Below, one piece after another: positions 3,067 through 63,769 of a stretch of 64,000 nt of DNA (positions are counted from its first letter, which is position 1; the number at the start of each line of letters is the position of its first letter). The notes under the pieces were generated by a model. It saw only the letters and a list, made by a program, of their open reading frames with translations. It made no database searches and was not told where the DNA came from. Source of the DNA: Combretum micranthum (taxonomy: Eukaryota > Streptophyta > Magnoliopsida > Myrtales > Combretaceae); assembly GCA_024138025.1 (NCBI GenBank), contig JAMXBD010001361.1, positions 1 to 64,000 on the forward strand, written 5' to 3'. Position numbers and translations under genes: made by a program.

Positions 3067-3114
3067 ATAGAGGGCGTAAATCCGTTCTGTGTGTGGGTTC
3101 CGGATACCCATACA
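3067..3114 (+). other. HP1-HP2 two-hairpin module of L1
   Basis: HP1: arms ATAGA/TCCGT (one A-C mismatch, one T-G wobble), loop GGGCGTAAA. HP2: arms 3090-3097 and 3107-3114, TGTGTGGG/CCCATACA, 8 pairs including one G-T wobble, loop TTCCGGATA. It is homologous in position to the modules of the other copies. Confidence 0.6.
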
Positions 3115-3663: not shown

Positions 3664-5821
3664 GAAACACCTATTTCCAATTACCAAAATGAGGATTTTA
3701 ATAGAAAAATAGAAGCCTTAGGGAATACATGCAATAAAGACTTAATTTTGACAAGGATAAGTGAATTTTATCGAGGTATAATCCTAAAACAAGGAAAGGT
3801 TTCAAAATATAGATCAAACAATGCTTTCATTCCTTAAAATCTTGTAAAATTCGTAACTTGGTAAAATCCCTATTTAAACATCTATTTTCCAAATCCAAAA
3901 TGAAGAATTTTATTAAAATAATGAAGGTGTTAGGCATATAGATCATTAAGGTTGTCTATTAATAAAAACAAGTGTGAATTTACAAGAAATAAAATTAGTT
4001 TTCTTAAATCAAGTAATTTAAAATGTTTTGCAAAGCAAAAGTTTTCTAAAAGAATTCTTGTAATCAAATATCATTAAGGATATACACATAAATAGGTCCT
4101 ATCATGGCATTCATGATAATAACTTGTAGATATTGCATGTACATATAATATACTTGGTAGAAACAAAGCTTAAGAAAATAGTGTCTTTCAAACCCCATAA
4201 AATATTGTCTAAGCACATGAGAAAATAGATTGATCAAAACCCATGAATCATGAATGATATTGAGTTATATATGTATATAAAAGGGTCTTTCAAGATATAA
4301 TGATAGTTAACTATCTATCAAAGCTTGTGCATGATGCTAGGATTGAAATTAGAATTTGATTTGTGGGTTGGGAATCTCGTATAACATTCTGTACCCTACT
4401 GTTCATGAACTAAAAACCTTTTTTCATGGAAATAAGTTTAGAAATAGATAGCTCGTCAAATAGGTAGAAATCGATATATAATATGTGAAATTCTGAGTTA
4501 AAATGGCCAAGTTATGGCCATTTTAAGTTGGAATTTCCTCTTAGGCGAACTTTGATGAACTTATTAAAATAGAATTTATAAGTTTCATTTAAACTTCATA
4601 GAAATACTCATTGGAGGTATTTCTTTTGTTAGGAGACTTGGGAGACGGACTAGATCTTCTTGAGGATTATTACGATTAAGAGGAATTTCGCGCCATGGCA
4701 AAGTGAGTTCACTTTCTTTAAATTACATGCTTATGATTGTGCCTGTAATGATAGTGGCATTAGAACTAGGACAAGATGAAATTAGAATGTGCATGTGAAT
4801 TCTATACGGTTGAATCGATGATAAGAATATTGAAATGGGAATTATTATAAATATGTGTATGATTTAGTATAGAATTGAAGTGTCTAAAATCTCTATGATC
4901 GCCTATAATTCACTTAAATAATATGCCATGACCATACAACTAAATTATCTGTGCATAACATATATTGAGTTACATTACATTTGTTATTATACCTTTGTGG
5001 GAAAAAGGCATAATAGCTAGGCAACAGGTGGGCCTGAAAACTCAGATATTGGCACGGGGTCGCTTGAATTAAAGTGGAAGTGGAGTAGGCACTTGAATCA
5101 ACTGCATAATTAATGAGTAGTAGGCACCTGAAACAACCACTAAATATTTGAGAGTAAAATTGAAATCTATGGTCGTATGGGCCTGAAACACCTAACCTCG
5201 AATGGAGGCTTAAATCCATTCAACATAAGACTCTCGGAAAGTCTTATGTATTGTATACTCACGTGCTTGTGCATTTCATATGATTGTTTAATATAACTTG
5301 CTTGCCCTATTGTTTGACAGGGTATTTAATTTGGAAGTGAAACTCATTAAGCTCGTAAGCTTATACCCCTATAGTTCCCTATTGTAGTACAATTATCTAT
5401 AGCTATCCCCAAGGGGACATTTCTCTTAGGTACAGCTTTTGGAATTTAAAGAGCTTTTTGAAGAAGTCGGGACCTAGATGTTAAGCATAGACTTCCAGTT
5501 AAATCTCCTTAATTATTATATATATATATATGTTGTTGTAAGAGACTTTTACGGACCCTAAAGACTCTTAATATTTTGACGAGAGTATGCCCCTTAGATC
5601 TTTGTAATAGATTAACCTTAATCATAACTGTTATGACTTATATTCTTAATGCTATGTATGTTTTCTTAAGCTATTTCGATTCAAAGTAAGGTCCCCTACA
5701 TGATGAACGTAAGCCTTACACTCGGTATCCAAACTCATGGAATGGCTAAAGTTGTCATACTTGAGTTTAAATATCGAGTGTGACAGACTGTTGTGTTTAG
5801 GCTACTCTTTAGAATGTAACA
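3664..5821 (+). mobile_element. LTR-like repeat L2 (family L), 3' part, host of L1
   Basis: Continuation of a family-L copy interrupted by L1; its 5' part lies upstream of the window. It carries the core block (4438-4538), an acceptor-like TTTTGTTAG at 4632, ATGGCAAAGTGAGT with GTGAGT at 4703, the paired HP1/HP2 hairpins (5201-5249), an acceptor-like TTGTAG at 5387 and a degenerate family terminus ending GTAACA. It is more diverged from the terminal consensus GGGGCGTGACA than L1, as expected for the older host of a nested pair. No coding content. Confidence 0.7.
5201..5249 (+). other. HP1-HP2 two-hairpin module of L2
   Basis: HP1: AATGGA (5201-5206)/TCCATT (5215-5220), 6 perfect pairs, loop GGCTTAAA. 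HP2: ACATAAGACT (5223-5232)/AGTCTTATGT (5240-5249), 10 perfect pairs, 7-nt loop CTCGGAA. This is the cleanest HP2 stem in the window. Confidence 0.7.
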
Positions 5822-10351: not shown

Positions 10352-10397
10352 AGAGAGGATGTAAATCTCTATTGGTTTGGATTTCGATCATCCAAAC
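10352..10397 (+). other. HP1-HP2 two-hairpin module of M1
   Basis: HP1: AGAGA/TCTCT (10352-10356 and 10366-10370), loop GGATGTAAA. HP2: GTTTGGAT/ATCCAAAC (10375-10382 and 10390-10397), 8 perfect pairs, 7-nt loop TTCGATC. Stem sequences differ completely from family L, while loop type, order and spacing agree. Confidence 0.65.
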
Positions 10398-14789: not shown

Positions 14790-17700
14790 TGTAAACCCCC
14801 GAAAATTTTCATAATTCATAAAATAATCATAGAAGTCTAATATTAAAATTGAAATCCGAAAATCGACTCAAGTTAAAATCAAATTCTAAATCAAGTTAAA
14901 CACAAAAATTCTTAGTCTTGAGAAAACGAGAACCCTTGAAACAAGATATAAAATCCAACTATTTATTGAATCAACATCCGTACACCAATCAAATGATCTA
15001 TCCGATTCCTAAAACGCAAAATAATGCTCAACAACGAAATGATAAGATCTTAAAATCTTCGGTGAATTTTAGAATTAGAAATTTCGATTTTCACTAAAAG
15101 TCAAACTAAGTCAACTTATAACCCTAGACTGGTTAAACGATCCCGAGAACTAAAAACTATTAAATAATCACAAATAAAATAAGATAAAATAGATATCGAG
15201 ATAAAAATATAAAACGGTCAAAACTCGAAAATTATATGATTTTACAAATAACTCAATAAAACCGGAAGTCAAATCAGAACCTTAAAAGTCAACAAAGCTT
15301 ATAACAAACCCTAGTGTTTAAGATCCGGCAATCTCGCGCTCTTAAACCCTAAACAACGAAATGAAAATAATTGTTGATAATAGCATGTAATAATATAGAG
15401 AAGCTTAAAAATATCAGATTCGCAAAATTTAAGTGTCCTTCAGATCCAAACGAGATCAGTTTTCAAAAATCATGTCTCGGTACACCGGATGACAAAAATA
15501 TTCCGTTAATACCAATAGACTCGTAAAAATATAAGGTTTCCAAAAATATCAGTTTTAGAATTTTTTGGTAGCTAAAAATTACAGATATCGCATTATTACA
15601 CGTATTTTTATTACTACCGGTACTTTAATTGTCTAGTCTACTATTCATATTACTTTTCTACTATTCATTACTATTTCACTAGCTCTGCTTTTTCTTACAC
15701 CTATTTCTTACTACCTACACACCTATTTCTTACTTTTTATATTTTCAATACAACTTTATTCACATCAAACCTTACATTACTTCTTTTATTACAAAACAAA
15801 CTAAAATAAATCAATTCTTCCCCTCTACATCACCAAACCGGCACCTCCCCTCTCTCTCTTCCATCAAATTGTTTTTCTTTTTCAATTTATTTTATTACAT
15901 CTAATTTCCACTCCAAAAATCTATAAATACCCCATTCCTCCTTCATTCTTTCACATAATTCATTTCACCACCAAAACTCTCTCAAAATCTCTCCACAAAT
16001 CCTCTCTTCAAGAATTCTCTTTACCAAAACTCTCTCAAACAAATTCCTCACAAAAATCATTCCTTATACATAAACTATCTACCACATATCATTACTCACA
16101 TAATACCCCTTTCATCTACCATCTTCATGCCACATAAACACTTTAGGTAAACTTCTTCTAACCATTTATATACCCATGTCATATAATTTAACATGACTAT
16201 GGTGTTGTTTTGAAACTCATATGAGTAGTAAAAGCAACAACATGTTCATGTTTTGTTCTTGCACATGAACTTCCTATTTTATTATGTTGTTATGTTGATT
16301 TTATTATTCATATCTAACTAAATATATTTATGTATATATATTTAATCTTTAGAGCATATAAGCTCACTTGTTATTTATTTATTTCATGATTTGCAATTTA
16401 TTTATTTCATGCTATTTCTTTAAAACTAGTTTTTCTAGACTTAGACTTGTCCATATCAAGTCAAAACAATCTTTTATTTATTTTCTTTATTCTTTTGGGA
16501 CCAATCCATTCTTAGTCCTGGGATGCCTTGATGAAGCTAAGGCTCCCAATACTTGACCGGGATATCTTGATGAAGCTAAGGTTCCCAATACTTGATATTT
16601 TATTTTCTTGCTTATTATTTGTTTCTAGTATTTTCTTATTTTCTTATGTTCTTATTATTTTGCATGCTCATAATACTTGCATCTACATAATGTTATTGTC
16701 TCAACTAATTTGAAATTAGAATTTTCTTTACTAAAGGAACTTAAAACCAAATTTTCTATTATGTGATTTCTCACAAAATAATGAAGTTATTATCAACAAT
16801 ATAAAAATAAAGTAATACAAGTTTTCTCAAGTTTTTCTCAAATAACAAAGATAACTTTACCAAAGAAACATAAGGAATAAATATTTTCTTTGTATATTAT
16901 GGTAACATAAGTTTTAGTAAAATAATTTGTTAATATTCAAAGTTTTTACAAAAAGCTTAAGATTTAAACTCTTTTTCACTCCATAACAAAGCTAAGAAAC
17001 AAACTAATTTTCAAGATAAGATGAATTCAACCCATAAAGTTATAAACCCACTTAGGAAAAATAATGATTTTCAAATTTCTAAAGAAAGAACATGTTTTCA
17101 AATAATATAAACAAGATAAGATTAAAACAAAGGGTTTTATCAATAAAGAAAATTCTTTTCAAAGGAAATAAAAGAACAAGTTTTAGAAAAAAAACTTATA
17201 TTTTAAAAATAATAAATATAAGAAGACAGGACTCATTTTCTAAAACCATTATAAATACAAAAAGGTTTTCAACAACTTAATACACTTTTGATAAATTTGA
17301 TCTTTATCACTAGAAGTAAAACTTATGAAGGACTAAGATTAAAAGAAAATTTACTTGTTTTTGGAAAGGAATGAAGAAAATAAAATAAGAATATACTCAT
17401 TATAATAACCTATGAAAATATAAAGTTTCTTCAAAGACTTGAAAAGAAAATTGTCAAAGTTTAAAGTCTTAACAACTCAAAAATAAATTGTTGAGGCACT
17501 ACCATTAGAATTTGTGCATATAAAGTGAGCTTGTCTATATACTCAAAGGATTTATCAATTATATATACATATATATATATATTATCTATATTTTTACTAA
17601 AGGATTTTTGAATGAAGTTGAGTTAGAAAATGGATTTGCAAAAGTTTAGAAATATTCGTTTCAAATCTATACCCAATGTTTTCGGAGCCTAAATGACCTT

Positions 17701-18937: not shown

Positions 18938-18987
18938 ACATATGACCAGCCGAAAATCATATGTGGATGGACTTACGCCCTCCATCC
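18938..18987 (-). other. HP1-HP2 two-hairpin module of L4
   Basis: On the minus strand HP1 is GGATGGA/TCCATCC with loop GGGCGTAAG. HP2 is ACATATGATT/GGTCATATGT, 10 pairs including two T-G wobbles, loop TTCGGCT. Confidence 0.65.
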
Positions 18988-21814: not shown

Positions 21815-22514
21815 TGGGTTTAACAAGCCAACCGAATGTTGTGGGTGAGGACTTAGGGACTAGCAGTAGAAGATCGAGGATCATCAACCCCGATTCCCTA
21901 ACCTTCGATACAGAGGGATAAATCCGTTCTATATATGGTTTCCGGATAACTATATATATTTGCGTAATCACGTGATTGTTGCATTGTATGCATAGCATAT
22001 GTGTGAAAATCTAAATGAACTTGTTTGAAAATATGGTACGAATGAAAAGGAATATCTCACTAAGCTAGTTGTAGCTTATACCCCTATGGATTTTGTTGAA
22101 ACAGGTATACCCGTGGCTTAAATTGAGGATCATGACATTAAAAAAGTCATGGAAGGATATTAAGCTTCTATGAAAGAAATGGGAACAAAAGATGAAGTAA
22201 TTTTGTAAGGTTATTTATATGTAATGACTTATATGATTAGTGTTATGTTGATTCCAAGATGCATATTTATTTGAAGTCAATAGAGGGATATACTTCTAAG
22301 AATTGTAACTTGATATGTTTATGATAAGTATTCTTTTTGTCTTGTTACTTATTTATTATCAATATAAATTGCGCTACTCCGATGCATTCCCTTGGTTGTG
22401 ATGTACGCCTTGTACATGATATGAAAGCCTTTGCATGACTGAGGTAGTCATTCCTAGACTTTAGTATTATATACGGCGGACTGCCACATTTAGGGTACCC
22501 CTCGGGGCGTGACA
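21815..22514 (+). mobile_element. LTR-like repeat L3, 3' segment after L4
   Basis: Resumes the 3' part of L3: HP1/HP2 hairpins (21910-21957), acceptor-like GTTGAAACAG at 22104, and the family terminus ending CTCGGGGCGTGACA. In L6 the stretch after the equivalent of the L4 insertion point is about the same length (703 bp), which supports this join. Confidence 0.75.
21910..21957 (+). other. HP1-HP2 two-hairpin module of L3
   Basis: HP1: ACAGA/TCCGT with a central A-C mismatch, loop GGGATAAA. HP2: ATATATGGTT (21931-21940)/AACTATATAT (21948-21957), 10 pairs including one G-T wobble, loop TCCGGAT. Confidence 0.6.
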
Positions 22515-25847: not shown

Positions 25848-26976
25848 ATGGTGGAATCATTGCGTACTAAGATAAAGTTAAATTTTTCAAATTATTGAAT
25901 CTGGAAGTCGATGATGGAAGATCTTTTACATTGTAAAGATCCATATGCCCCTTTAGGTGGTAATAATGCGAAGCCAAAAGATAAATCTAATGAAGATCGA
26001 TGATCATACATCAAAAAAAGAACTATCGATTATATCTGGAAATAGGTATCATAGTGTTTATTATAATGTTGCTCAGGAAACTAAAGCTAATATTCTATGG
26101 AATAAATTGAAGTCCATGTATGAGAGGTAGACTGCCTTGAATAAAACCTCCTTGATTAGAAGAGTAGTGATTTAAAATATAAAGATGGATCTAACGTGAC
26201 AGAGCACTTGAATGACTTCTGAGGTCTTGTGAATCAGCTATCTGCTATGAAACTTGTGCTGATGATAAGATATAAGCACTTTTGTTATTGAGTTCACTGT
26301 TGATAGTAAGGAGACACTTGTGGTGTTAGTTAGTAATTCTGCTCCAAAAGGAAAGCTCACTATTGCAATAGTGAAAGATATTTTCAGGAACGAAGAAGCT
26401 AGAAGAAAAGAACTTTGTGCATGTTATCACACTCAGGCACTAGTTACAAATAAATTGGAAAGACGTGGTAAAAGCAGGACTAGAGGCTCATCTAATAAAT
26501 CTAATATATCTGACAAATCTAGTAGAAGATCAAAATCAAGAAGAAGAAATATTAAGTGCTATCCTTATGACCAACCAGGACAACTAAAGCAAGAATGTAG
26601 AATATGGAAGAGAAAGCAGACGAAAGGTAAAGGTGATGGAAAAGGTGATGACATGACTGCTATAGTAGTAGATGATGAGATTGTTATTGCTTGGGATGAT
26701 GACTGTGTTAGTCTCACTTGTCATGATAATGACTGGTTTATTGACTCTGGTGCCTCATTTCATGTGACACCATATGGTGAATTCTTCTTAACCTATACTG
26801 CTAATGATTATGGCAATGTTAGGATAGGAAACAATGGTACATCTAAAATTGTTGGCATTGGAAATATTATTTTGAAGACTAATACTAGTTGCAAACTCAT
26901 TCTCAAAGATGTTAGACATGTTCCAAATATCTGTCTAAACCTAATATCTACAAGAAAATTAGATGATAAGGGATAA
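25848..26976 (+). pseudogene. copia gag and aspartic protease, broken
   Basis: A gag start is visible at 25848; about 17 codons on, the reading meets TGA where a Trp codon would fit the family, then more shifts and stops. From 26320 a 218-codon stretch is open: basic linker, a degraded zinc knuckle (CYPYDQPGQLKQEC, with the second Cys and the His of CX2CX4HX4C lost), an acidic segment, then the protease motif WFIDSGASFHVTP with intact DSGA and the following glycine-rich segment. This is the normal copia gag-PR order. Not functional as a polyprotein. Confidence 0.85.
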
Positions 26977-32289: not shown

Positions 32290-33637
32290 TTATGTATAAA
32301 TGGGATTGTAAGCGACTCAAGCCTATTTATGAGCTAAGCAAGTTAGACTAAGTGATAGCTTGAATTCAACTTGGCTGCAATTGAGTCAAGCTCAATTGAT
32401 TCAAGTAACCCGTGAGCCTATTCAAGCTTTTTATATATTTTATTAAAAAATTATTGAACTTTTGGTTTTTCTCTTTTTAAAGCCTATTTTCTTACTTTGA
32501 TTTTTCCCCTGTAAACCTCCAAAATTTTGCGATCAATTAAGCTTAAACCCTAGTCGAAAGTCCAATTGGAAACCCTAAAGTCAACAAAACCCTAGTTAAA
32601 CATAACAGTTTAAGTCTGGTAATCCCATGTTCGCAACCCTAAGTGAGTGTGTAAGAGATTAGTATGTAGAATAGTTTGTAATAACATAAGGAAGCTTAAA
32701 AAGATCAGTTTAGCAAAACTGCAATCCATTTTGGACTCGAATGGATACAGTTCTTGAAAAACGTGTCTTGGGGCTCAGAATAGGAAAAATATTCCGAATA
32801 TACGATTAAACTCGTAAAAATATAAGGTTTTCAAAAATATCAGTTTTATAATTTTTTGGTAAGTAAAAATATTAGATATCGCAATTATACATGTATTTTC
32901 TTACTACCGGTACTTTATTAGTCATATCTATTTTACATTACACTATTCATTACTATTCTACATTATTCATTTATCTCTACTTTTTCTAACACGTACTCTT
33001 ACACTTTATACATGTAAGCCCCTAGATTTTTCGATAATATTAGTAAACCCTAAGAACCGGAAGTTGAAACGAAACCCAAAAATTAACCTAGTTCTATGTT
33101 TAGTCTAGTGAATCTAGATCCGGCAATCCCGTGTTCTTAAACCCTAGAAAACGAAATTGAGATAATTGTGGAATATGGTTCGTAATTATATAGGAAAGCC
33201 TAAAAATATCAGATTTGAATTTTTCTAGTGTCTTTTGGATCCGATCGGGATCAGTTTTCGAAAACCGTGCCCCGATGCACTGGATAGCAAAATTATTCCG
33301 ACAACACCAATAGATTCGTAAAAATATAAGGTTTTCAAAAATATCAGTTTTATAATTTTTCGGTAACTAAAAATAACAGATATAGGCCTTTTACGCGGAT
33401 TTTCTTTACTACCGGTATTTTAATTGTCTAGTCTACTATTCATAGTACTTTTCTACTATTCATTACTATTCACTTATCTCTACTTTTTCTTACACTCTAC
33501 CACACCTATACCTTACAATTTACCTTCCCCATACAACTTTAATCACATCACACTTTACACATTACTTCTTTAATCACATCAATTTTATTTTCTTTTTCAA
33601 ATTATTTAATTACATCTAATTTCCACTCCCAAAAATC

Positions 33638-33645
33638 TATAAATA
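33638..33645 (+). promoter_or_regulatory. TATA box of L6
   Basis: TATAAATA then CCCCC, followed by a CT-rich, ATG-poor leader. The same arrangement occurs in L3, L5 and L7. Confidence 0.6.
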
Positions 33646-34000
33646 CCCCCTTTCTCTTCCATTCTTTCACACAACAAAATTCATACCAAAACTCTCCCAA
33701 AATCACTCCACAAAATTCCTCTCCCAAAATCTCTCTCAAGTTCTCTCTTCCTTAGAAAATCCATTCCCACATAATATTACAACCCATTCTTTTCTTCTTC
33801 AACCAACACATAAACTTTAGGTAAAAATTTCTTATTTACTCATCATGTTCATATAACTTAACATGAGTTTAGTGTATGTTTCTTAGACTCATTGAGTTAA
33901 AGAAGCAACAATTTATTCATGTTTTGTTTTTGTTCATGTTCTATTCTTTTCTTTATGTTATTATGTTGTTATTGATTTCTAACCTAACTTATATAAGTAT

Positions 34001-34002
<2 letters not shown>

Positions 34003-34028
<26 letters not shown>
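34003..34028. repeat. (TA)n microsatellite
   Basis: About 13 TA repeats inside L6. A shorter TA run lies at the matching place in L5 (37124-37146). Confidence 0.9.
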
Positions 34029-34031
<3 letters not shown>

Positions 34032-35161
34032 TTAGAGCATATAAGCTCACTTGTTATTTATTTATTTTCAAGTCTTGCAATTTATTTATTTACTTGTTTT
34101 ATGCAAATATTAAGACTAGTCTTTCTAGTCTTAGACTTGTCCATATCAAGTCAAAACAATTTTATTTCTTTGCTTTTCTTTTCTTTGAGGACTAGTCTAT
34201 TCTTAGTCCCGGGATACCTTGATGAAGCTAAGGTTCCCAATACTTGACTTTACTTTTATGCTCTTATATATTTTGTTTATCTTATTATGTTGGTTTTATT
34301 TTATCCTCATTCATACATGAATATGTGATATTGTCTCAACCATAATGAAAATGAGCTTCCTTTAGTAATAGAAAGTAAGAACCCTCCTCAAAAATAAATT
34401 TTATCTCATAAGAAATTATTTTTCCATAAAGACTTAAAGTTTTGTCTTAACAAATATTTTTCTAAAGCTAGACAAGTTTAGCTCAAGTTTTAGTAATAAC
34501 ACTATATGAGATTTTATCAAGAAATACATAAAGTTATTACAAACTCTTCTTTCAAACAAATAAAATAAGAAAGTTTCTTTAAACATTCCTTAATCAACCA
34601 AAAGTTTTCTTAAACACATTTATCAAAATTTTCTACCAACATTTTAAATACTAAAGTCTAGATAAGTTTTCAAAAATTTACTTATAAAGATCATTTCTTT
34701 TAAAGTGGATCTAAGAAAAGCTATAGAACATATACCCATGAAGTATTTAGAAAAACTATGTTTTCCAAAACATTAGAAATAAAGTAGTAGGAATTTAAAA
34801 AGATTAAAATTAATTTTATTTAAGAAAAAGAATTAAAAGAAGGAGATGCTCACTTTTAGTAAAATAAGAAATTTCTTAACAAAACTAATTTCTTTACAAA
34901 ACTTAAGCTTATCTCACTTTCAAAACATAATGTACTACAAGAACATTGTTGAGACAACACCACCAAATTCATGCATATGGTTTGAGTATATATGTATTCA
35001 AGGGATTTTCCTTCAACCATATAATGTATCTATATTTTTGTACAAAAGCCCTTGAGTGAAGTAAAGTTTGAAAACTCTAGTTTTGAAGTTTGGAAAATTC
35101 GTATCAAATCTGTACGCTACTATTCCGAGGCCTAAATAACTTCTTTTGATAAAAATAACCT

Positions 35162-35263
35162 TAGAAATAGATAGATCTTTTCGAGTAGGTAGAAATCGGT
35201 ATATAATATGCGAAATTCCGAGTTAAAATGAGCAAGTTATGGCCATTTTAAGTTGGAATTTCC
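35162..35263 (+). other. family-L core block (L6 copy)
   Basis: The longest stretch conserved among L copies: TAGATAGATCTTTTCGAGTA, then GGTAGAAATCGGTATATAAT, then CGAAATTCCGAGTTAAAATG and AGCAAGTTATGGCCATTTTA. The last part can fold as GTTAAAATG/CATTTTAA around AAGTTAT. Equivalents: 2299-2400, 4438-4538, 17719-17819, 19611-19712(-), 38189-38288, 51902-52003(-), 62989-63088. Confidence 0.8.
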
Positions 35264-35937
35264 ATTCGATTTTTACGAATTCTCTAAGATAGAAGTATAG
35301 AATAGATCTTGGATGAAATACTCATGTTGGGTATTTCTTTTGTTTAGGTGTCGAGGATCACGATCTTGTCTTCCCCGAGGATTACTTCGACTCCTAGATC
35401 GCTATGGACGAGTGAGTTTCCTTTACGCTTATGTATTCGCGTATGTGCTTGTAGAATAGAGCACTAGATGTTAGGAAAAGATAAAATTGATATGCATGTG
35501 GGATATTATGGGAATTATGTATGTGATTCGTTGTGTGCGTGATCAATGAACGATAAGTATATCGGAACCGATTTGTGATTAATATAAATGTTTCCATGTA
35601 TGTATTGTTATGTGTGCAAATATTGTTTGATCGCTTTAAATGATTTAATGTCATATTGAAATCCCCATATAATAAATTGCTCATGCATATCACTTAGAAT
35701 ATCATTTCGAAATTTTGCTACTACTCCTCAGCGTGGGACCGGAAAGGTAAGCTACCTTGCTACAATCTTGAGAGTTAGGACGTTCGGGGAATACGGTCTC
35801 AAGGTGTAGCCGAGCCGGATCGATCGCTTTGGGTAAGGAAAGCCCGGGGACTAGTAGTACGGTTCGTTGGAACCCCAAGACGCGCGCAACTTTCAGGAGG
35901 TCGTTCGGGACCCAGTTCAAAGCATTCCCTAACCTCC

Positions 35938-35985
35938 GATGGAGGGGTAAATCCATCAAACATACGAAACCGGATAGTCGTATGT
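35938..35985 (+). other. HP1-HP2 two-hairpin module of L6
   Basis: HP1: GATGGA (35938-35943)/TCCATC (35952-35957), loop GGGGTAAA. HP2: ACATACGA (35960-35967)/TCGTATGT (35978-35985), 8 perfect pairs, loop AACCGGATAG. Relative to L2 (ACATAAGA/TCTTATGT) the sixth pair changes A-T to C-G on both sides. Confidence 0.7.
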
Positions 35986-36730
35986 AATGTTTGATCATAT
36001 GGTTGTTGCATTCATATGCTTGATTAATAAACTTGGTTGATTGTTTGTTATGAGTACTTTTGCGTAAGGAATATCTCACTAAGCTAGTAATGCTTATACT
36101 CCTACAGACTTTTGACTTGCAGGTTTATCTTTTTGCACCCGAGAATCTTGACCACCCGGGTAGAATCTTATTTTGAGAAGCTTTTGGAGGAATTCTATTT
36201 TGAAGTTATAGAGTAGATTTCTTCTAAAACCTTCTAGCTTTAGTTATGATATATTCAGTAGAACCATGTTGTTATATATATCGGGGGAATGCCCCTTAGA
36301 AGTTGTAAGACTTTATATTTTTATGAAATATATTAAGTGTTATTTTGTATGTTCCGCTGCCAACATCTTAAAATGCATTACTTCAACGGTCTCCCTTTGT
36401 TGTGAGTGTACGCCTTGTACCGATATGGAAGCTTTCGAGTGACTAAGGTAGTCATTCTTGAGCTTTAATATTGCGTACAGCGGGCTGTCACGTTTAGGGT
36501 ACCCGTTGGGGCGTGGCAATACACCTATTATCTTTACTTTTTACCTTTCTCATAACTTTATATCACATCTACTTTACTTATTATTATATTTAATTAACAA
36601 AACTACAAAAAAAAAAAAAATCATCTCTTACCCTCTCTCTTCTATATGGCTGGCGCCAACCTTCCCATTTCACTCATATTATTTTTAATTTTATTTATTT
36701 TAATCATACAAAATTCACTCCTCATTTCCC

Positions 36731-38957: not shown

Positions 38958-39007
38958 GAATGGAGGGCGAAAATCCATTCAACATATAGTTCCCGGAAAA
39001 TTATATG
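38958..39007 (+). other. HP1-HP2 two-hairpin module of L5
   Basis: HP1: GAATGGA (38958-38964)/TCCATTC (38974-38980), 7 perfect pairs, loop GGGCGAAAA. HP2: CATATAGT (38983-38990)/ATTATATG (39000-39007), 8 pairs with one G-T wobble, loop TCCCGGAAA. Confidence 0.65.
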
Positions 39008-51170: not shown

Positions 51171-51219
51171 ACATATGACTTCCGGGAATCATATGTTGAA
51201 TGAATTATGCCCTTCATTC
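51171..51219 (-). other. HP1-HP2 two-hairpin module of L7
   Basis: Minus strand HP1: GAATGAA/TTCATTC, 7 perfect pairs, loop GGGCATAA. HP2: ACATATGATT/AGTCATATGT, 10 pairs with one T-G wobble, loop CCCGGA. Compared with L5 HP1 (GAATGGA/TCCATTC) one pair changes G-C to A-T on both sides. Confidence 0.7.
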
Positions 51220-53215
51220 GGGGTTGGGTATTCAGGCCAATTACAGCCACAACTTTTAAAACACTTTTATAGATCTTACCGGCTCCTATACACCATCAAA
51301 AACTTGTAGTTATTACAGGCTCCTACTAGCCACCAGTTTTTGTAGTTTTTACCGGCTCCTACTCGCTACTTACATGATATACCGGTTATGTCTACCACCA
51401 CTATTATACACTTGTCCACCAATTGTATAGTAGTGAATGCAATGTGACTCAACATATGAAGTGCATGCATAATTTCTTAATTAGAGTCTAGTAATTATAT
51501 TTATCTTCTTTCAAGTGAGCAACCAATTTCAAACACTTCAAGATAGTAATGTACAACAACTTTATTACAACATATCAAGTTTCAATATACTTAACATTCT
51601 TTCAACATATTATCATACAACTTCCATTTGATTTTTGCCTAAATTCTAGTGCAACTAATTTTTTACAAACACAATCAAGAGTATGAAAAATAATGGGGAA
51701 TAAACTCACTCGGCCATGATGACACCTTTCTTGAAATGAATGAGTCGTTCGGGATTTCCACTAATCGTAGTAATCTTCAGGATACGAACAATCCTCCTCG
51801 AGATTATCTAATCAAGAAGAATACCCAAAATGAGTATTTCATGAAATTTCTCTTCTTGAAGATTCTAACTTTTCTTAAAATCGCAGTAAAATCGTATAAG
51901 AGGAAATTCCAACTTAAAATGGCCATAACTTGCTTATTTTAACTCGGAATTTCTCGTATAATATACCGTTTTCTACCTACTCGAAAAGATCTACACATTT
52001 CTAAGCTTATTTTCATCAAACTAAGTCGTTTGGGTCCCAAAAAAGCAGCGACCAGATTTGCCACGAATTGCAAAAACTTGTTTTCCTTCTTGTAAATATA
52101 ACTCATTTGAAAAGATGAATATTTTATGTATTTTGTAAACTTTTTGAAAGGTATATACATATATGTAATGACTCATAACAAATGTATGAAGTAAATGAAG
52201 TTGTCTCAACTTATGAAAAAGTAAAGTTTAAAAGATGTTGAACTTGAGATTCGTCGGAATATTCATTTTACTTTTGAAAAGATCTTGAGTTATTTGAGAT
52301 GAATATTTCTTTTTCTAAGTTTAATCTCTTGTGACTACTTTAAATTCCTAAGGAGTGGTTTTATTTTCTAAACTTAGATTCCAACAACTTTTAAAAGTAA
52401 TAAAATGATATTTTTTTTTCTTGTAATGATTCCAAAAGAATTTCTAATACTTGATGAAAAATAAGTTTTTATAAAACTTTTTTTATTTAAGAAAAATCAT
52501 TTCTAAGCATGTTCATGAGTTCTTTAAGAAATCTATTTTCTACATTTATTTAAAAAGAACCTTTAGTTTAAGAAAACATTCTCCTTTATTTTTGTTGAGA
52601 CAAAAACATTATGTTCATGCATGAATATGAATCATAAACTATAGAAATATAAAGGAATATAATAACTTGAAAGATTAAGCAAATAAGAAAGTATATCAAG
52701 TATTGGAACTTTAGCTTCATCAAGATACCCCAGGACTAAGAAAAGACTAGTCCCAAAAAGAAAAGAAAAGAAAAGTTTTGACTTGATGAGGATAAGTCTA
52801 AGACTAGTCTTAAGAACAACTTGAAATTAAATAAATTGCAATGAAATAAATAAATTGCATGGAAGGTAAATAAATTGCAAGACAATGAGCTTATATGCTC
52901 TAAATATTATATATAGCTATATAGATATTTAGATGGTTATGAACATAAAGGAAACATAAAGGAACATAAAGAAATTGTGATTATGAACAAAAACAAAATG
53001 AACCTATTGTTGCTTTCTTAACTTCATGTTTTAGAAAACACACACTAAGTTTATACTAAGTAGATGAACATAGAAATTCTTGAAGGCATATTACCTAAAA
53101 GAAAGAAGAAGAGAGGAACTTCTTGTAAGAGACTTCTTGGAGAGAATTCTTGAGAGATTTTGAGAGAGTAACTTTAGTAAAGAAGTGGTGTGAAAGAAGT
53201 GAAGGTATGAGGGGG

Positions 53216-63719: not shown

Positions 63720-63769
63720 GGATGGAGGGCGCAAGTCCATCCACATATGATTTCCGGTTGGTCATATGT
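63720..63769 (+). other. HP1-HP2 two-hairpin module of L9
   Basis: HP1: GGATGGA (63720-63726)/TCCATCC (63736-63742), 7 perfect pairs, loop GGGCGCAAG. HP2: ACATATGATT (63743-63752)/GGTCATATGT (63760-63769), 10 pairs with two T-G wobbles, loop TCCGGTT. Confidence 0.7.

Follow-up and report, generated by a model that had tools for sequence, protein, structure and literature searches.

A hairpin array with co-varying arms in the long terminal repeats of a Combretum micranthum chromovirus: a candidate signal of unspliced genomic RNA

Structured leader signals are known for LTR elements, in retroviruses a signal inside an intron marks the unspliced RNA, and long-LTR chromoviruses account for a substantial share of many plant genomes. 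In yeast, RNA dimerisation of the Ty1 retrotransposon has been modelled through kissing loops, and compensatory changes were found to rescue its stem-loops, according to the accessible part of that study (PMC5454406). The array described here shares with Ty1 the proposal that hairpins in the RNA of an LTR retrotransposon initiate dimerisation and packaging through complementary loops; however, in the accessible text the Ty1 hairpins lie at the RNA 5′ end together with a pseudoknot (PMC5454406), whereas the CCGG loop reported here lies about 2.3 kb past a TATA-like box in a long LTR of plant type. Retrotransposons must also avoid packaging spliced RNA, and BARE, like the carrier described below, is a plant LTR retrotransposon, the spliced RNA of which must stay out of replication (PMC3735527, available portion). 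The available portion of the same paper gives BARE a 104-nt intron at the end of gag and two promoters (PMC3735527), whereas the putative intron considered here lies inside a chromovirus LTR.

Among chromoviruses, the Tekay clade comprises Del, Bagy-1, Legolas, Peabody and Retrosat-2 (PMC6317226, accessible text), and Retrosat2 has LTRs of over 3.2 kb (PMC3485330, accessible text). Tekay members resemble the present carrier in having a chromodomain in the integrase region and very long LTRs, but the accessible parts of these two papers (PMC6317226, PMC3485330) describe neither a hairpin array nor an LTR intron, whereas the carrier has an array and a putative intron. Residual conservation in long R regions can be due to stem-loops, as stated in the available text of a hidden Markov model study of LTR structure, in which plant Metaviridae LTRs could not be modelled and where such an array does not appear in the text available (PMC3601003). 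Among the open PMC papers surveyed, mostly by title and the beginning of the abstract, none was named for a conserved RNA structure in chromovirus LTRs, and a three-hairpin array inside a plant chromovirus LTR intron was not found.

The module, its carrier and the surrounding LTR

The window is the whole stretch of 64,000 nucleotides of contig JAMXBD010001361.1 of C. micranthum that was analysed here. A sequence-only reading of it had listed nine copies of a module made of two adjacent hairpins, HP1 and HP2, in which the stems differ between copies and yet stay paired. All nine copies are located where that reading had placed them, and each forms two adjacent hairpins when excised alone, although the lowest-energy fold of the copies at 3067 and 21910 takes another HP1 register than the one previously written. 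Both-sided changes occur at 11 of the 17 pairs among the nine copies, in agreement with stems that differ and stay paired; the proportion of paired cells is 92.1%, compared to 80.5% in shuffles and 26–42% with slid partners. The HP2 loops, which had been described as clustering around TCCGGAT, are better captured by the core CCGG, which is found in six of nine copies and is absent in those at 5201, 10352 and 18938. The reported G-T intermediates hold for HP2 (125 G.U versus 54 A.C cells in 144 distinct rows) but not for HP1 (19 G.U versus 99 A.C).

Folding energies were lower than those of dinucleotide shuffles in seven of nine copies (z from −2.3 to −4.6), with a weak z of −1.2 for the copies at 10352 and 21910. 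Because HP2 was retained in the minimum-energy fold of seven of nine copies, and HP1 in that of three of nine, when each copy was folded together with 30 nt of flanking sequence on both sides, HP2 is considered the firmer hairpin. A scan of the window with the full covariance model, which is no independent test in that the model was trained on the same nine copies, returned these copies at E-values of 8.6e-16 to 3.3e-12, the next match (0.0044) being the reverse strand of the copy at 5201. The Rfam search that the sequence-only reading had suggested gave four window matches at E up to 5, none of which reached its gathering score or overlapped a module; the module thus matches no Rfam 15 family among the covariance models with which the window was searched. 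An ENE contains a U-rich internal loop, and an ENE-type poly(A) clamp was rejected on inspection of the folds, HP1 and HP2 being without such a loop. An ENE poly(A)-clamp element has been reported for Evade in the available part of PMC12501189. Table 1 also lists features that the earlier reading had missed: HP3, the boundaries of the LTR, signals resembling splice sites and a conserved peptide end.

Table 1. Positions, in the window, of the carrier LTR, its putative signals and the module copies
Feature	Positions	Strand	Evidence or remark
Solo LTR carrying the 35938 module, 3,506 bases, TGTAAGCCCC...GGGGCGTGGCA	33013..36518	+	5-bp target duplication ATACA at 33008-33012 and 36519-36523
TATA-like box CTATAAATA	33637..33645	+	transcription start predicted ~30 nt downstream
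Putative exon 1/intron 1 border, TTTAG/GTAAAA	33820..33821	+	TTAG/GTAA in 9/9 distinct rows covering the site
Second hairpin cluster, four hairpins, in putative intron 1	34111..34239	+	RNAalifold, 7 family rows, -46.2 kcal/mol, computed without a null
Putative exon 2, peptide end ...FPEDYFDS* in one frame	35348..35411	+	frame ends in stop in 10/10 family rows picked
Putative 5′ splice site GTGAGT	35412..35417	+	7/9 window copies; 30/37 copies picked from loci
Putative intron 2, 711 nt	35412..36122	+	predicted; would hold the hairpin array
HP1, copy 35938	35938..35957	+	fold
HP2, copy 35938, CCGG in loop	35960..35985	+	fold
HP3, TAAGC...GCTTA	36080..36096	+	branch-point-like CTCAC 36075-36079 just before
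Putative exon 3 start after acceptor TTGCAG/G	36123..36124	+	splice-like signal
Module copy, F3067 family	3067..3114	+	putative exon 2 at 2495-2564, exon 3 from 3246
Module copy, F5201 family	5201..5249	+	fold, window scan
Module copy, old F10352 family	10352..10397	+	fold, window scan
Module copy, F18938 family	18938..18987	-	fold, window scan
Module copy, F21910 family	21910..21957	+	upstream part differs; exon 2 not found
Module copy, F38958 family	38958..39007	+	donor is GTGACT
Module copy, F51171 family	51171..51219	-	putative exon 2 at 51710-51807, exon 3 from 51034 downward
Module copy, F18938 family, near window end	63720..63769	+	fold, window scan

The right end of the carrier LTR coincides with the common end of homology with loci L002-L008. 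Pieces of locus L141 match the Pfam domains RT_RNaseH (9.4e-36), SH3_Tf2-1 (1.6e-13) and Chromo (1.3e-07), and the RNase H, SH3_Tf2-1 and Chromo matches precede an LTR whose start resembles that at window position 33013. These domain matches identify the carrier, the LTRs of which measure 3.5 kb, as a Ty3/gypsy chromovirus, and from the chromodomain and the LTR length we tentatively assign it to the Tekay clade. By eye, TGGTATCAGAGC was seen in L007, 8 nt beyond the end of the LTR, and TGGTGTCAGAGC in L006, and L007 also has a candidate gag-like stretch downstream; presumably, TGGTATCAGAGC and TGGTGTCAGAGC represent a putative tRNA primer binding site and the stretch in L007 a putative gag.

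Several side observations concern the element and the window at large. At L047:2441-2498, the LTR appears by eye to be recombinant, with an F18938-type module but F3067-like exon 2 and HP3 surroundings. Six short matches of 97–99% identity in reversed order at G000:C193:1419194-1479505 hint that the window has a counterpart there, either allelic or duplicated. A 218-codon frame at 26320-26976, which by eye we take to be a Ty1/copia gag-to-protease piece, is unrelated to the module.

In the carrier LTR, the module is the start of an array of three hairpins (HP1, HP2 and HP3) located 2.3 kb past the TATA box. Putative exon 2 is preceded by an acceptor-like, T-rich TTTAG at 35347, and in the 10 rows picked its peptide ends in PEDYYD, PPDYFY and similar sequences (pattern GD.E....PEDYYD*), with TAA, TAG and TGA all used as stops. 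An upstream exon with a start codon for this peptide was sought by eye in the LTR and none was found. In several families, ATGGNCGA followed by GTGAGT (35404-35411 for the part before the donor) places an ATG eight bases before the donor; if unspliced, the frame from this ATG would read ATG GNC GAG TGA, i.e., three codons and a stop. The distance from GTGAGT to the module is 466–526 nt in window copies and 435–522 nt in copies from loci, and putative intron 2 measures 711, 675 and 681 nt in three copies. In many F10352 rows, HP3 has TGAGC/GCTCA instead of TAAGC/GCTTA, which is a compensated pair. Of the 40 blind loci introduced below, 31 have a YAG 13–33 nt past the HP3 block, compared to a shuffle mean of 18 and a maximum of 27. 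On these signals, the array seems to lie near the end of a putative LTR intron of approximately 700 nt; it is likely that the array is part of the transcript, and we lean towards its position inside an intron.

Further upstream, the stems of the second cluster (34111-34239) vary between families, yet largely pair. A 39-base unit of this intron-1 hairpin (GGGATACCTTGATGAAGCTAAGG...) occurs at 16520-16595 in about two tandem copies. A frame beginning ATG AAG CTA at approximately 34229 was set aside as likely due to chance; it overlaps a hairpin. It was also observed that, in the copies at 51171 and 63720, the donor AGTGAGT and the ACTCACT at HP3 are reverse complements of each other, and nearly so in others (in the copy at 35938, the two places are 35411-35417 and 36074-36080), which raises a possible long-range pairing.

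Covariation of the arms among element families

All relatives were taken from one genome of 1.86 Gb, in which they were gathered by seven DNA queries built from different copies; the loci taken from the query match lists amounted to 38/40, 20/40, 2/40, 12/40, 30/40 and 8/41. The covariance model was run on 92 sources (the window and the 91 of 140 loci that hold the LTR) and yielded 141 matches, from which 31 overlapping, one spurious and one cut-off match were removed to leave 108, and a 97% identity cut reduced these to 97 rows. In addition, a blind sample of 40 places was chosen by the downstream HP3 motif CTCACTAAGC-N5..9-GCTTAYRCC, which has 37,899 exact matches in the genome, whereas its reversed control has none there. 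These 40 loci were picked for HP3 loop variety among the first 100 listed places and are all on contigs C1 and C2; HP3, being their selection motif, cannot be tested on them. The merged set of relatives and blind loci comprised 135 rows after the same identity cut. Three of the 38 F10352 relatives (L105, L115 and L116), which are among the most decayed, were missed by the model search, and both the 97-row and the 135-row sets therefore lean towards pairing.

The HP1-HP2 model matched upstream of the motif, on the same strand, in all 40 blind loci (E-values of 8.6e-18 to 1.1e-5). Damaged arms were seen in two of them, L150 being without most of HP2 and L166 without one arm of HP1.

Covariation was assessed by a self-written test in the manner of R-scape, which combines a tree and parsimony changes with nulls in which the count of changes is preserved either for each branch or for each column. 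For the 97 copies, the score summed over 17 pairs was 391, compared to null maxima of 147 and 116 (200 simulations each). In the merged set (n=135) the sum was 627 versus a null maximum of 149 (200 simulations, per-column null only), and in the 40 blind loci alone it was 130 versus 64 (per-column null only). Counted singly among structure pairs only, 2 of 17 pairs fell below 0.05 in the 97 copies, 4 of 17 in the merged set and 3 of 17 in the blind set; when all column pairs of the 97 copies were counted, no structure pair reached E<0.05, the best being 0.45. An alignment of the 40 blind loci made from sequence alone and covering HP1, HP2 and HP3 (22 pairs) had 91.5% of cells paired, compared to 87.3% in shuffles and 26–45% with slid partners. 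In this alignment, both-sided changes were found at 10 of 22 pairs versus 5.7 in shuffles, and none of 500 shuffles reached 10; because HP3 was the selection motif, all 10 of these pairs fall in HP1 and HP2. Covariation between families is visible in the sums, which exceed the tree-based nulls, and in the comparison with shuffles, but rarely in single pairs (at most 4 of 17, structure pairs only). RNAalifold recovered HP2 and HP3 on a 331-column alignment of the blind loci but not HP1, in place of which a 3-bp CCC/GGG pairing appeared. The arms of HP1 and HP2 co-varied as element families diverged, and the structure is very probably under selection.

The timing of compensated double changes on the same branch bears on when this selection acted. 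On internal branches of the 97-copy tree, 11 such changes were counted (null mean 1.3, maximum 6), compared to 3 at the tips (mean 1.9, maximum 7; 300 simulations). The merged set gave 13 internal changes (mean 1.4, maximum 5) and 9 at tips (mean 2.6, maximum 11), and the blind set 7 internal changes (mean 0.7, maximum 3) and 5 at tips (mean 1.1, maximum 4). The tip excess in the blind set fits less neatly, and would be accounted for if tips there are mostly family branches; a tip of this set is often the sole sample of its family. One-sided tip changes kept the pair as often as under the null in all three sets (0.41 versus 0.41 in the 97 copies, 0.44 versus 0.43 in the merged set and 0.40 versus 0.40 in the blind set), and one-sided changes on internal branches exceeded the 95% null bound in the blind set only (0.57 versus 0.52), remaining within it in the other two. 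Old F10352 relatives, 79–87% alike to the copy at 10352, have visibly broken stems; among the 38 of them, L116 was not matched at any E up to 1, and the scores of others fell as low as 10.7 bits, compared to 56.9 bits for the window copy. Since one-sided tip changes look neutral, selection probably acted while the families replicated. The sequence-only reading had claimed selection on a fold in dead solo LTRs: its arms do co-vary across families beyond tree-aware nulls, but the neutral one-sided tip changes and the decay of old copies do not support selection in dead solo LTRs. The families probably evolved under selection while replicating, and inserted copies decay.

Possible functions of the array and competing explanations

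The paired arm changes point to a working RNA signal in the life cycle of the element. If the array is transcribed and lies within the LTR intron just before the acceptor, only unspliced genomic RNA would have it at the 5′ end, and the array could then be the cis signal by which unspliced RNA is chosen for packaging. The CCGG loop of HP2 is self-complementary and is a candidate site at which two RNAs could join loop to loop as a dimer. CCGG is found in 25 of the 40 blind HP2 loops; another 12 differ from it by one or two changes, and in several of these the difference is the one that CpG decay would produce; in the 97 copies, 50 loops contain a 4-nt and 14 a 6-nt palindrome. The core is only 4 nt long, with the three exceptions among the window copies given above. 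A conserved paired structure, which characterizes retroviral-type packaging and dimerisation signals, is present, and a location in the RNA leader is predicted. Because both splice signals lie in the LTR, the 3′ end of the transcript might carry the array as well. A cis packaging or dimerisation signal of unspliced genomic RNA, held in the LTR intron, is the best explanation available, and we offer it tentatively, at somewhat less than even chances; once selection, transcription and the intron are granted, the chances of a packaging or dimer signal are about even.

The close rival to such a packaging signal is splicing control, in which the hairpins would set the rate of LTR intron removal, for example through exposure or masking of the branch point (CTCAC by HP3) and the acceptor. 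HP3 indeed touches the branch-like CTCAC, at a median of 44 nt before an acceptor-like AG in the 31 of 40 loci where one was found, and the complementarity between donor and HP3 noted above would suit this role; however, it is not compensated in the copy at 38958 (GTGACT and CTCACT), HP1 and HP2 lie approximately 135–185 nt upstream of the acceptor in the copy at 35938, and the splice sites are themselves predictions, so that we consider splicing control possible rather than probable. The acceptor-like signal that follows the array also bears on a structure for poly(A) or 3′-end processing of the 3′ LTR transcript, for which the location in an LTR region past the TATA box, with T-rich sequence further on, could be cited; with an acceptor-like signal in that place instead, this reading appears quite unlikely.

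Other explanations do without a sense-strand RNA or without selection among replicating families. The G.U versus A.C strand test found no sense-strand preference (12 G.U versus 26 A.C internal events), and the HP1 counts argue against reading this hairpin simply as sense RNA; in the model, HP1 of the 10352 family may be out of register. Because the test did not favour sense RNA, DNA-level explanations, such as paired half-sites for a protein or cruciforms, remain candidates, and HP1 and HP2 are both near-perfect inverted repeats; nevertheless, the arms drift in sequence while remaining complementary, which a fixed protein site would not do, and order and orientation relative to HP3 are constant in nine window copies and 40 loci, making DNA palindromes unlikely. 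Template switching inside hairpins, by which one arm is copied from the other, could produce compensated changes without selection and would give double changes on one branch, such as the tip excess of the blind loci. It is an improbable source of the pattern in view of the two separate hairpins kept in the sampled families next to a poorly kept sequence just upstream of HP1, and of the loss of stems in old copies. That the fold is maintained by selection in solo LTRs after insertion, as first proposed, draws on the fact that the nine window copies still fold, and is hardly credible given tip changes at the null level in three sets and the decay of old copies.

Returning to the packaging and dimerisation signal, the complete picture would be that of a plant chromovirus LTR intron that hides a multi-hairpin signal, such that only unspliced RNA is packaged, the LTR is kept from losing its own intron in each cycle and the spliced product carries a conserved peptide end (..PEDYYD); taken as a whole, this picture is still doubtful. 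The 37,899 exact HP3 motif copies in one genome represent a large natural alignment for finding cis signals of chromoviruses, and with the array it can be tested directly by what means a plant retrotransposon distinguishes its genomic RNA from its messages.
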